Under the pieces are notes generated by a model. That model saw nothing but the letters and a program-made list of their open reading frames with translations, was not told the DNA's origin and did no database searches. Source: Acidobacteriota bacterium (GTDB lineage Bacteria > Acidobacteriota > Holophagae > Holophagales > Holophagaceae). Taken from it: a DNA stretch of 64,000 nt. Within the stretch, counting starts at the first letter, position 1. Each line of letters opens with the position of its first letter. Where the stretch lies: assembly GCA_016213735.1 (NCBI GenBank), contig JACQZU010000024.1, positions 124,001 through 188,000 of the forward strand. Direction: 5' to 3'. Shown here in pieces: positions 5,665 through 51,631 of the stretch. The position numbers were made by a program, and so were the translations under genes.

Positions 5665-6813
5665 ATGGAGAGGATGCCCCTTCCCGAACTTCCCCCCGCC
5701 GTTCCCCTGGCCCTCTTCGCGCTTTTCGGGGCTGAGTGGCTGCTGACCCAGTCCAGGGTGCGAAGCCTGGAGGACCTCCCGGAAACCGCCGGGGACCGAG
5801 TTCTCCCCGGGACCTGCCTCTGCATTCCGGCCCGGAACGAGGCCGCCGAGGTCGGCCCGGCCCTGGACTCCTGGCTCGCCCAGGATCATCCGGCCCTGCG
5901 CGCCGTCGTGGTGGACGACGGCAGCACCGATGGCACTTCGGAGATCCTGGCGGTCCGGGCCCGGGCCCACCCCGGGCGGCTCCGGGTGATCCGCAACGAG
6001 GGCCTGCCCCCTGGGTGGCTGGGGAAGAACCACGCCCTCAGCCTGGCGGTGGCCGCGCCGGAGGCCCGGGAATCGGAGTGGCTGATCTTCGCGGACGCCG
6101 ACGTCCACGCGGAGCCCGGCCTCCTGCGGAGGGCCTTCGCCTACCTCGAGGCGAACCCCTGCGACGTCCTGGCCCTCATTCCAGCCGTGGACCTGGGGAG
6201 CTTCGGGGAGCGCCTGGCGCTGCCCATCGGATCCATGGGTTTCCTCTGGTTGGTACCGCCCCGACGCGTGGCGGACCCGAACAGCGCCTTCTTCTGCGGC
6301 GTGGGGGCCTGCACGTTCATGCGCCGCGCCGCGTATGAGGCCATCGGGGGCCACGCCGCCGATCCCATGGAGGCGGTGGACGACATGATGCTGGCCCGCC
6401 GGGCCAAGGCCTCCGGCTTCAAAAACCGCGTGGCCTGCGGGGGGCCCGACCTTCACCTGAGGATGTATTCCGGGCTCTGGGACCTCGTGCGGAGCATGCG
6501 GAAGAACGCCCTGGCCTTTCCGCTCCTCTCCGCCCTGGCGCCCCTTTGGATCCTGGCCATCCTGGCGCTCTTCCTCTCGCCGGTGCTCCTCGCGCTCTTC
6601 GGCTGGCCTCTGACCGGATTCGCCCTCTGGCTGCTGTGGCCCGCCATGGTGGCGGAGGCCACCCAGCGCATCACCCGGCGGGCGGTGGAGCCCGCCTGGA
6701 TGCTGTGGCCCCTGGTGGGCCCGGTGCTCGCCCTGGGTCTGGCCTGGGCCTTCCTGGACCGCCTGCGGGGCGTCAACCACTGGCGCGGGCGCGAGGTAAA
6801 GCTGAGGGTCTGA
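5665..6813 (+). CDS. Membrane-associated family 2 glycosyltransferase (HpnB-like)
   Basis: 382 residues. An N-terminal hydrophobic segment (about 10-28) precedes a GT-A domain. The domain has the nucleotide-binding start CIPARNEAAEV (about 52-62), VVDDGSTDGTSE (about 88-99) and the metal-binding FADADVH (about 141-147). The C-terminal ~100 residues are very hydrophobic and hold three or four predicted membrane helices. The fold and length match family-2 glycosyltransferases, including the hopene-associated HpnB type, but no hopanoid gene is nearby. Donor and acceptor sugars cannot be told. It is divergent from the lipoprotein gene and its stop is followed at once by the dispersed repeat at 6820. 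The second in-frame ATG at 5674 is a possible alternative start. Confidence 0.82.
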   Translation: MERMPLPELPPAVPLALFALFGAEWLLTQSRVRSLEDLPETAGDRVLPGTCLCIPARNEAAEVGPALDSWLAQDHPALRAVVVDDGSTDGTSEILAVRARAHPGRLRVIRNEGLPPGWLGKNHALSLAVAAPEARESEWLIFADADVHAEPGLLRRAFAYLEANPCDVLALIPAVDLGSFGERLALPIGSMGFLWLVPPRRVADPNSAFFCGVGACTFMRRAAYEAIGGHAADPMEAVDDMMLARRAKASGFKNRVACGGPDLHLRMYSGLWDLVRSMRKNALAFPLLSALAPLWILAILALFLSPVLLALFGWPLTGFALWLLWPAMVAEATQRITRRAVEPAWMLWPLVGPVLALGLAWAFLDRLRGVNHWRGREVKLRV

Positions 6814-6819
6814 TACCTA

Positions 6820-6963
6820 GGGGCGATCAACACAAAAAAAAGCAATATTCACCGCCAAGACGCCAAGACGCCAAGACGCCAAGAAGTGCATGAGCATTTG
6901 ATTCCCTTTTCCTGGCGTCTTGGATTCTTGGCGGTGAGTTTTTCATCTTTGAACGCCCATTCG
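6820..6963. repeat. Dispersed hairpin repeat, copy A
   Basis: This ~144-bp stretch has a second copy at 31085-31222 in the same orientation. The shared right-hand half is nearly identical: TGCATGAG, then CTTGGATTCTTGGCGGTG, then TTCATCTTTGAACGCCCATTCG. The element forms a long imperfect hairpin: a left arm starting CACCGCCAAG at 6850 can pair with the right arm ending CTTGGCGGTG near 6936. In this copy the left arm consists of four perfect 8-bp units CGCCAAGA (6853-6884). It lies between two convergent genes and may work as a bidirectional terminator. No protein-coding signal was recognised. Confidence 0.8.
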
Positions 6964-6972
6964 GTTGATGCC

Positions 6973-7027
6973 TCAGTAGAACCCCTCGTCCTTCGCGGGG
7001 GGATAATCCTTCCCGAACTTATTCTTC
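6973..7027 (-). pseudogene. Duplicated 3' tail of the cupredoxin gene
   Basis: Read on the minus strand this fragment encodes KNKFGKDYPPAKDEGFY and a TGA stop. It matches the C-terminus of the intact gene at 7076 (KNKFGKDYPPAKDEGSY) except for one residue. The nucleotide match is about 55 bp, with substitutions at largely silent positions, and stops abruptly where the palindromic unit at 7026 begins. There is no start codon or upstream part, so it is a remnant rather than a gene. Confidence 0.75.
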
Positions 7028-7075
7028 TCGGTATCTGCTTCGCCGATACGCGAGACCTCCCGTCGGGGTCGTCCC
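7026..7075 (+). repeat. Palindromic unit between two copies of a gene tail
   Basis: TCTCGGTATC (7026-7035) and CGATACGCGAGAC (from about 7043) form a hairpin with one bulge. A second small hairpin, GACC/GGTC, follows. The same head, TCTCGGTATC and CGATACGCGAGAC, occurs on the minus strand at the 51.5 kb locus. The unit sits between the intact 3' end of the cupredoxin gene and its duplicated tail. Confidence 0.6.
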
Positions 7076-7744
7076 CTAGTAGGATCCTTCGTCCTTCGCG
7101 GGAGGGTAGTCCTTGCCGAACTTGTTCTTGTGGGGCTCGAAGGGGGGGAGGGTGGCGCCCAGGGACCACTCCCCCCGGGTCGTGCCCTCCCCGATGGTGA
7201 CGGGGAAGCTGCGTTCCCCGCTCTCCGGGTGCCACAGGCGCAGGGTGTAGCCCCCGGCAGGAAGGTCCTGGAAATCCAGGCCAGTCTTCCCGTCCAGCAC
7301 CAGGGCCCAGGGCGTCTCCACCACCCAGAGGAAGGCGTTCATCCTGTGGTGCACGTTGCAGTAGAGCTTCATGAGGCCGGGCTTGTTCACCTTCGTGCGG
7401 GGGCTGTCCCCGGGCTCGTAGTGGCCCGTGTCGAAGGGGTTGGCACAGCAGACGCTGAACACGTTGTGCAGGATGCTGTCCTGGTTGGGAAAGGCCACCT
7501 CGCTGCCCGGGGTGGTCCAGGCCACCCGGGGGACGAAGCGTTTCCCCGCCGTTCGGATCCGCAGGAGGGGACGGGCCGGGGCCGGTGCCTTGCGCGCCGG
7601 CTCCAGGATGGCGATGACGTCCCTCAGCCCCTCCCTGGGACGGCCGTCCTTTTCCAGGAGCCGGACCGGCCCCTGGAGAGACCCCGCCCAGGCGGCCCAC
7701 CCGAGCAGCAGGAGGCCTCCCGTCCGTCCCCGAGAGGGACTCAT
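7076..7744 (-). CDS. Exported cupredoxin-domain (blue copper) protein
   Basis: 222 residues with an N-terminal signal-like hydrophobic segment (about 8-24). A plastocyanin-type copper site is visible: His93 in ILHNVF, then Cys129, His132 and Met135 in KLYCNVHHRM. This is the ligand set of type-1 copper proteins and of the methylamine-utilisation-like cupredoxins. A C-terminal beta-rich part (about 150-200) resembles a carboxypeptidase-regulatory-like domain. It probably carries electrons or binds copper in the periplasm. Its ATG overlaps the stop of the ferritin-like gene by 4 bp, so the two are translated from one message. The last ~17 codons are repeated downstream at 6973-7027, separated by a palindromic unit. 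Confidence 0.82.
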   Translation of the reverse strand: MSPSRGRTGGLLLLGWAAWAGSLQGPVRLLEKDGRPREGLRDVIAILEPARKAPAPARPLLRIRTAGKRFVPRVAWTTPGSEVAFPNQDSILHNVFSVCCANPFDTGHYEPGDSPRTKVNKPGLMKLYCNVHHRMNAFLWVVETPWALVLDGKTGLDFQDLPAGGYTLRLWHPESGERSFPVTIGEGTTRGEWSLGATLPPFEPHKNKFGKDYPPAKDEGSY

Positions 7745-12775: not shown

Positions 12776-12816
12776 GGGGGTCCGTTGGAAGGGTCCAGGG
12801 TACGGCTCCGCCCCGG

Positions 12817-12850
12817 AAATTCGAAAATCGAAATTCGAAATTCGAAAATA
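12817..12850. repeat. Short AT-rich tandem repeat (7-bp unit AAATTCG)
   Basis: Four and a half units: AAATTCG, AAAATCG, AAATTCG, AAATTCG, AAAATA. It is the only AT-rich stretch in the 89-bp divergent gap between the amino-acid permease and the DUF58 gene. It runs straight into TACACT (12849-12854), a possible -10 box about 10 bp before the DUF58 ATG. Confidence 0.75.
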
Positions 12851-31071: not shown

Positions 31072-31084
31072 GGCCTCATGCCAA

Positions 31085-31222
31085 GGGGCGGTCAATTCAA
31101 AATAAAGACAATACTCACCGCCAAGGTCCCAAGCACGCCAAGAACTGCATGAGTATTGGATTTCCTATTCTTGGCGTCTTGGATTCTTGGCGGTGGGTTA
31201 TTCATCTTTGAACGCCCATTCG
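31085..31222. repeat. Dispersed hairpin repeat, copy B
   Basis: Second copy of the element at 6820-6963, same orientation. It fills nearly the whole gap between the convergent glycerophosphodiesterase and Npt-like transporter genes, ending 2 bp before the transporter stop. The right arm CTTGGATTCTTGGCGGTG and the tail TTCATCTTTGAACGCCCATTCG match copy A with very few changes. The left arm is more divergent (CACCGCCAAGGTCCCAAG) and lacks the 8-bp tandem. Confidence 0.8.
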
Positions 31223-44385: not shown

Positions 44386-44542
44386 TCCGTCTATCGCAGG
44401 CTCCACTGGAGCCTGCTCCCAATCGCTTGCTCCTTTGGAGCTGTGCTCTTGGAGGCGGAGCCTCCCGCCTATCGCAGGCTCCACTGGAGCCTGCTCCCAA
44501 TCGCTTGCTCCTTCGGAGCTGCGCTCTTGGAGGCGGAGCCTC
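44386..44542 (+). repeat. Two tandem 78-bp palindromic units
   Basis: The unit begins CTATCGCAGG at 44391 and again at 44469. Each holds a perfect 9-bp hairpin, GCAGGCTCC/GGAGCCTGC around ACT, and a second hairpin GCTCC/GGAGC. The pair lies inside a duplicated 3' end of the YjbQ gene. The gap 44343-44694 is otherwise free of genes. Confidence 0.8.
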
Positions 44543-50216: not shown

Positions 50217-51434
<1,218 letters not shown>

Positions 51435-51631
51435 GGATCACCCCGCTGCCGGAATCAAGAGATCGCAACGGAGTCTCCCGTATCGCCCGCAGGGCGATAC
51501 CGAGAGGAGGGCAAGTTTGAGGAATTCCCACAGAGCCACGGATCACCCCGCTGCCGGAATCAAGAGATCGCAACGGAGTCTCGCGTATCGCCCGCAGGGC
51601 GATACCGAGAAGAGGGCCAGTTTTTGGAACA

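Follow-up and report, generated by a model that had tools for sequence, protein, structure and literature searches.

A long hairpin between two convergent genes in an Acidobacteriota genome (3.59 Mb, 97.2% complete) probably belongs to a class of mobile elements, as a MITE-like, non-autonomous copy with no gene of its own; the coding members of the class contain a gene for a GxxExxY nuclease. In the best reading of the data, elements of this class have inverted arms of about three 7-nt units each, of the form CRCNRAK and with a period of about 8 bp, and the unit in the hairpin described here is CGCCAAG. The hairpin lies in the window, by which we mean the whole stretch of 64,000 nucleotides that was analyzed (G000:C16:124001-188000, G000 being the source genome).

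The left arm of the window hairpin (6850-6884, forward strand) consists of CAC followed by CGCCAAGA in 4.0 copies, which TRF placed at 6853-6884 with 100% matches. When 6810-6975 was folded as RNA, the arms formed a predicted stem of 25 bp, made of 14 and 11 bp on either side of a 2/2 internal loop, with an energy of -66.7 kcal/mol and a z of -6.73, and none of 200 shuffled sequences was equally stable. The loop (6885-6910, forward strand) is in part paired into a small inner helix in the model, and the right arm (6911-6937, forward strand), read by eye, holds three inverted 7-nt units, CTTGGCGT, CTTGGATT and CTTGGCGG, the middle one being degenerate. Upstream lies a family 2 glycosyltransferase gene on the forward strand (5665-6813; Pfam PF00535, 1.9e-19), and downstream, on the reverse strand, a convergent ORF of 222 aa (7076-7744) with no Pfam match. 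Rfam, searched at the gathering score, gave no known structured RNA family in the window. The initial annotation had described a hairpin with this fourfold tandem at a convergent junction, and TRF, the fold and the ORF calls bore this out. Its claim that the microsatellite is confined to one arm did not survive, since the right arm also holds three copies of the 7-nt unit, and the suggestion that the arms evolve at different rates stands only to the extent that the window copy has four perfect units in its left arm.

The window copy and four others could be aligned over positions 1-154 of the query 6810-6975 (6-154 in one of them), and these long copies have related outer inverted ends of about 20 bp, TGATAC(n4)GGGCGWTCAA. 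Because of this alignment and these ends, we take the whole long-form element in the window, with its outer ends, arms and loop, to span ~6811-6970. Its left outer end, TGATACCTAGGGGCGATCAA (6811-6830, forward strand), begins with the TGA stop codon of the upstream glycosyltransferase ORF, which forms the first three bases of the element, and its right outer end (6950-6970, reverse strand) is related to the left one in inverted orientation. A second copy at 31075-31222 (forward strand), also at a convergent junction, is 82% identical over query positions 1-154 and nearly the same in its right half, as had been claimed of a copy 24 kb away. When the outer ends were searched with a regular expression, 9 of 78 ends matched versus 6 of 1560 shuffled ones, and the window copy was missed, probably through a poor anchor; the outer ends given above rest on the alignment of the long copies, not on this expression.

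A search of the source genome for CGCCAAGACGCCAAG with at most 2 mismatches gave 51 forward and 42 reverse places, versus 4 and 4 for a control pattern. When pattern and alignment matches were merged, 44 places were obtained, four of them chance single-site matches inside genes, and the hairpin family, counted with these four left out, comprises about 40 places in the source genome. Judged by eye, each arm of the common form is built of about three 7-nt units; some places have one arm only, and at others (C12:25568, C13:93806) the units are CACCAAG or CGCAAAG, with both arms altered alike. Five elements share the same second palindrome (TCTCGGTATCGGC...) at an identical point of one arm, as if a composite had multiplied; this palindrome is found at C12:159953, C13:232506, C15:62601, C15:152118 and C22:63822 of G000. 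In the window, a lone second palindrome (TCTCGGTATCGGC..GCCGATACGCGAGA) lies downstream of the hairpin at 7026-7050, and by eye there seem to be two copies of the 3' end of the 222-aa ORF, at ~6975-7024 and 7076-7130, with this palindrome between them.

The 44 places comprised 19 at convergent junctions, 19 between co-directional genes, none at divergent junctions, 5 inside ORFs (the four single-site chance matches and one arm of a GxxExxY element) and 1 at a contig edge, to be set beside 31 convergent, 109 co-directional and 20 divergent junctions in a background that is itself biased, having been obtained with a crude gene caller from the window and these same loci. By comparison, convergent junctions seem enriched and divergent ones seem to be avoided. 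The bias toward convergent gene ends that the initial annotation had proposed as a check is thus supported in part, by the 19 convergent and 0 divergent places of the 44, though not by the 19 co-directional ones. Copies within operons, which it had regarded as evidence to the contrary, were encountered in part, in that the co-directional places include carA-carB and argS-pyrG (gene names assigned by eye from the sequence). That co-directional genes flank half of the copies speaks against a simple terminator, and because copies sit between operon-type genes we consider a plain terminator unlikely. A terminator scan of 6700-7100, confined to loops in the range 3-8, called a sole site at 6996-7015 and none at the hairpin, and a TTTTT begins 4 bases past the right arm.

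Beyond the source genome, at least 118 stretches of named genomes contain the exact core, CGCCAAGACGCCAAG(10-40)CTTGGCGTCTTGGCG. Among the matches listed there were, by title, Acidobacteriota, Planctomycetota, Alpha-, Beta- and Gammaproteobacteria, delta-type and myxobacterial MAGs, Verrucomicrobiota, Lentisphaerota, Chloroflexota, Gemmatimonadota and one cyanobacterium. After removal of shifted frames of the same array and of identical flanks, 94 elements from these stretches were used to evaluate arm covariation, which the initial annotation had proposed as a check. At positions -1, -2 and -3 beside the core, 84, 83 and 62 of the 94 were paired, versus shuffled means of 55.7, 51.9 and 35.7, and at each position none of 1000 shuffles reached the observed pairing. 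Pairing was weak at -4 (36 versus 25.3, 9 of 1000 shuffles) and at -5 (42 versus 33.8, 36 of 1000), and there was none further out. Covariation is thus clear in these cross-phylum copies for the three pairs next to the core, and indicates that the palindrome is either under a pairing constraint or generated in a way that preserves the likeness of its arms; the pattern of pairing places its end some 3-4 bp beyond the first unit. The idea that hairpin loops at terminators are the target, read by eye from five flanks, was dropped, there being no general pairing beyond ~4 bp. When the ORFs that surround 80 of these 118 stretches were compared all-against-all, only two families, an ABC ATPase and a histidine kinase, occurred in four or more loci, suggesting that a partner gene does not usually adjoin the gene-less copies.

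That genes of the GxxExxY family may have repetitive flanks was the lead to a partner. The source genome has three PF13366 matches, and one of these genes (C12:159570-159914) lies between CGCCAAG arms, in an element that spans 159478-160012 and whose ORF runs into one arm. Three coding elements that were measured are 437, 487 and 535 bp long. A flanking inverted repeat with a score of at least 15 was present at 47 of 60 GxxExxY loci (21 of 30 in relatives, 26 of 30 cross-phylum) and missing at this threshold from 13, while it was seen at 11 of 596 random positions, 8 of those 11 in loci of the GxxExxY type; in two of the loci above the threshold (L241, L247), arms made of units are not obvious. 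The arms are inverted 7-nt CRCNRAK units with a period of about 8 bp, and the units vary by locus (CACAGAG, CACGAAG, CACGGAG, CGCAGAG, CGCAAAG, CGCCAAG, CGCCGAT and others, mostly of CRCNRAK form). Under a stricter test, which demands that each side hold at least two CRCNRAK units, 33 of 59 GxxExxY loci passed (11 of 29 relatives, L249 being omitted as it had no domain in the local search, and 22 of 30 cross-phylum) and 26 failed. None of 27 PF05635 loci and none of 24 pyrG loci passed this test, and random windows passed in 61 of 4000 and 13 of 4000 cases.

The association was also seen at the level of whole genomes. From the hairpin list 43 genomes were picked, of which 42 were searchable; GxxExxY was present in 33 of these 42 and not found in 9, genome completeness not being given. 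Among 297 Acidobacteriota, PF13366 was present in all 13 genomes with an exact hairpin versus 99 of the 284 others, and in the window's own family in 10 of 10 hairpin genomes versus 16 of 22 without a hairpin, which is a weak contrast. The largest number of exact CGCCAAG hairpins among the 297 genomes, 57, was found in an Acidobacteriota of another family (G106). Two GxxExxY loci with CGCCAAG arms (L157, L223) surfaced unsought among the at least 118 stretches, and both have a lone left arm, the gene, one or more further left arms and then an inverted right arm, indicating that composite elements exist. Both relatives that were found on viral contigs carry such arms, by eye. Eight plasmid records were found, and four of the five that were inspected have such arms too, with Treponema below threshold; the one GxxExxY query that was used matched 0 of 50,697 phage records and 8 of 72,556 plasmid records.

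One relative, G004, has 49 PF13366 matches, mostly inside a high-copy, about 99%-identical IS-like repeat, and PF13366 fragments lie there between CGCGGAG-type arms in varied states of internal deletion (L256-L271, L275). We rejected the possibility that these are the element's own deletion derivatives, as the 17 stretches taken are mostly in the high-copy repeat; PF13366 within an IS-like repeat has no bearing on the element's own mobility.

Four arm-enclosed proteins scored 133.4-148.9 bits with the GxxExxY model TIGR04256 (cut-off 35) and 130-148.2 bits with PF13366 (PDDEXK_3; cut-off 22), far above the cut-offs, and they belong to this family. Both models are named by motif and fold only. 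An AF2 model, built on three sequences and with one of five models confident, had a pLDDT of 83.8, and its best structure match was lambda exonuclease at a Foldseek E of 2.9e-3, with none reaching 0.001. Further matches included LHK-Exo, restriction enzymes, Hjc and SSO0001 (101 aligned residues, rmsd 6.0, and a Z of 9.2 on a scale where values under 8 may reflect a common arrangement). The top ten in both structure lists are, judged by title, nucleases or domains of the PD-(D/E)XK superfamily, with lower rows mixed; by sequence, the best match in the PDB had an E of 0.16. Residues D66, E76 and K78 and the glutamate of GxxE are invariant in 25 sequences. The model and the structure matches, which are of middling strength, and the invariant residues place the arm-enclosed protein in the PD-(D/E)XK nuclease superfamily.

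The arms change along with the protein. In a tree built from 56 GxxExxY domains with arms (nine unarmed of 65 rows were left out, and nine of the 56 arm labels were set by hand from inverted repeats), which has many open forks and rests on a short alignment, the division between CRCNRAG-type arms and all others (GAT-type etc.) called for 3 changes versus a shuffled mean of 11.9, and none of 500 shuffles was as low. CGCCAAG versus the rest required 6 changes versus 9.4 (1 of 500 as low). Arm type therefore follows protein clade. Finer labels fit less well: the full unit required 40 versus 43.4 (18 of 500), the second unit letter 13 versus 17.3 (12 of 500) and letters 4-5 together 27 versus 31.7 (9 of 500).

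To follow insertion history, we compared orthologous junctions. The argS-pyrG junction was comparable in 13 of 25 genomes, G012, the unreadable G006 and ten genomes with an upstream gene other than argS being left out. By eye, it holds a gene-bearing CGCCAAG element in the window genome and in G013, a truncated gene with CACCAAG arms in G005, and hairpins that lack a gene and belong to other arm families in G002, G009 and G015, and it is empty in G003, G004, G007, G008, G010, G011 and G014. The window glycosyltransferase was matched in 28 of 41 genomes, from which 20 loci were taken, four of them unreadable. Behind the orthologue there is a CACCAAG hairpin in G155, a CGCGGAAG hairpin in G002 and arms of period 7 in G009 and G146; of the 15 relatives that could be read, 10 have none of these, and G005 has another kind of repeat. 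In G010, a PF05635 gene is interrupted by a CGCCAAG hairpin, with profile positions 2-33 and 30-84 matched on either side, and ACTTG at both sides of the insertion is no more than suggestive of a target-site duplication. In Sphingomonas parapaucimobilis, a GxxExxY gene with CGCGAAG arms forms a 437-bp stretch between the annotated genes fabD and fabG, and S. paeninsulae has no such stretch from fabD to the matching start of fabG. No target-site duplication was established at these sites, the empty site of S. paeninsulae being too diverged to read one.

These observations would fit a scheme in which the GxxExxY protein is the enzyme that moves the elements. The nuclease would recognize its own arms, probably in the form of a DNA hairpin or cruciform, cut at them and drive copying into new sites, which under a presumed target rule would often lie just behind stop codons. 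Gene-less hairpins would arise by internal deletion and then be moved in trans, and the long stem might allow operons to withstand insertions, for instance if it is cut out of the mRNA. We regard movement by GxxExxY as having about the same chance of being right as of being wrong. The wider proposal, of a new multi-phylum mobile class in which a PD-(D/E)XK GxxExxY protein recognizes hairpins of 8-bp period, protein and arms co-evolve, gene-less hairpins are non-autonomous copies and PF05635 genes with period-7 arms form a parallel class, stands in our judgment evenly poised. The most economical account of the data is a class of mobile elements with coding and gene-less members. Counting against this account, no target duplication was established, 9 of 42 genomes lack a GxxExxY gene, 13 of 60 loci have no strong flanking repeat, and the one query that was used gave no vector between phyla.

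The main competing explanation makes the hairpins a host gene-end feature, a terminator or an mRNA 3' stabilizer, with the GxxExxY genes as parasites that enter their loops. Such a feature would account for the very stable stem, for 19 of 44 places being convergent and none divergent, and for two GxxExxY genes that lie beside a complete hairpin, not between two single arms. However, hairpins also separate genes of operon type (carA-carB and argS-pyrG by eye, fabD-fabG as annotated), the same junction is empty or occupied by different arm families in relatives, and arm type tracks protein clade, and we consider this explanation unlikely. Somewhat less probable still is a MITE of an ordinary DDE transposon with outer TGATAC ends, in which the inner hairpin and GxxExxY would be passengers. 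Although the window copy and four others have common outer inverted ends of ~20 bp, and GxxExxY fragments hitchhike in the IS-like repeat of G004, cross-phylum pairing is clear only to ~3 bp outside the core, so that the outer ends look local, and the arms accompany GxxExxY in distant phyla.

REP and REPIN sequences are short, dispersed, intergenic palindromes that are non-autonomous and have a single-gene partner, RAYT. An element of this kind, moved by a RAYT (Y1 HUH) transposase, would resemble the hairpins in all of these general respects, including the tens of copies dispersed between genes and the single-gene partner in the genome. It is nevertheless a very improbable identity, and we rejected it on the absence of any PF01797 (Y1_Tnp) match at E <= 0.001 in the 97.2% complete source genome, a control search with PF01797 having given matches in 5 of 14 known genomes. 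Unlike REP/REPIN, the hairpins have arms of tandem 7-nt units, a partner gene between the arms and one core sequence that is common to many phyla. REP palindromes are reported to have a GTAG/CGTC-type tetranucleotide at their foot (PMC3733652).

In the gene-less, mobile-class reading, the window hairpin works like a MITE with a partner, and it shares with MITEs inverted ends that are common to a gene-bearing element, here the CGCCAAG arms around a GxxExxY gene of the same genome. MITEs, including the bacterial RUP, BOX and RU elements, are gene-less and share their inverted ends with a gene-bearing partner. The hairpins differ in having multi-unit arms that fold as one hairpin and a partner of PD-(D/E)XK type, not a DDE transposase, and in that no target duplication is shown. 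In 23S rRNA intervening sequences, too, a small gene lies within a hairpin formed by inverted arms. Free PF05635 four-helix-bundle genes have tandem-unit arms too, but with a period of 7 and a different protein, and CRCNRAK arms on both sides, as seen around GxxExxY, occur at none of the 27 PF05635 loci. In relatives, by eye, 10 of 27 PF05635 loci (L307-L309, L311, L312, L315, L317, L318, L321 and L323) have inverted arms, mostly of period 7 (GGCTGGA, GTGATGG, AGTCCTT, GATTTTT and others).

With ends and enzyme unmatched to any described family, the element class is apparently undescribed. In the open-access literature, a scope that limits the weight of the absence, we found nothing on the hairpin repeat or on a link of GxxExxY to repeats or mobile elements; a passage of one paper (PMC8934634) mentions GxxExxY only as a reverse transcriptase neighbor. 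GxxExxY genes are common and annotated by motif alone, and their tie to unit-armed hairpins gives them a testable function and explains a class of intergenic repeats with an exact core that recurs across phyla. If the element really moves in the way proposed, a common protein family of unknown function would acquire a job, and a nuclease with the fold of restriction enzymes, Cas4 and the R2 endonuclease might be able to drive a minimal element of ~500 bp. The natural pairs of arm sequence and protein are material for studying how recognition changes.

Other repeats were seen in the window. A period-7 array, GAAATTC in 4.6 copies at 12816-12847, is possibly a period-7 arm. At 44387-44542 there is a 78-bp tandem duplication with many small palindromes, and at 51399-51623 a 105-bp unit occurs twice in tandem, with CCACAGAG- and CCGTATCGCC..GGCGATACC-like stretches.
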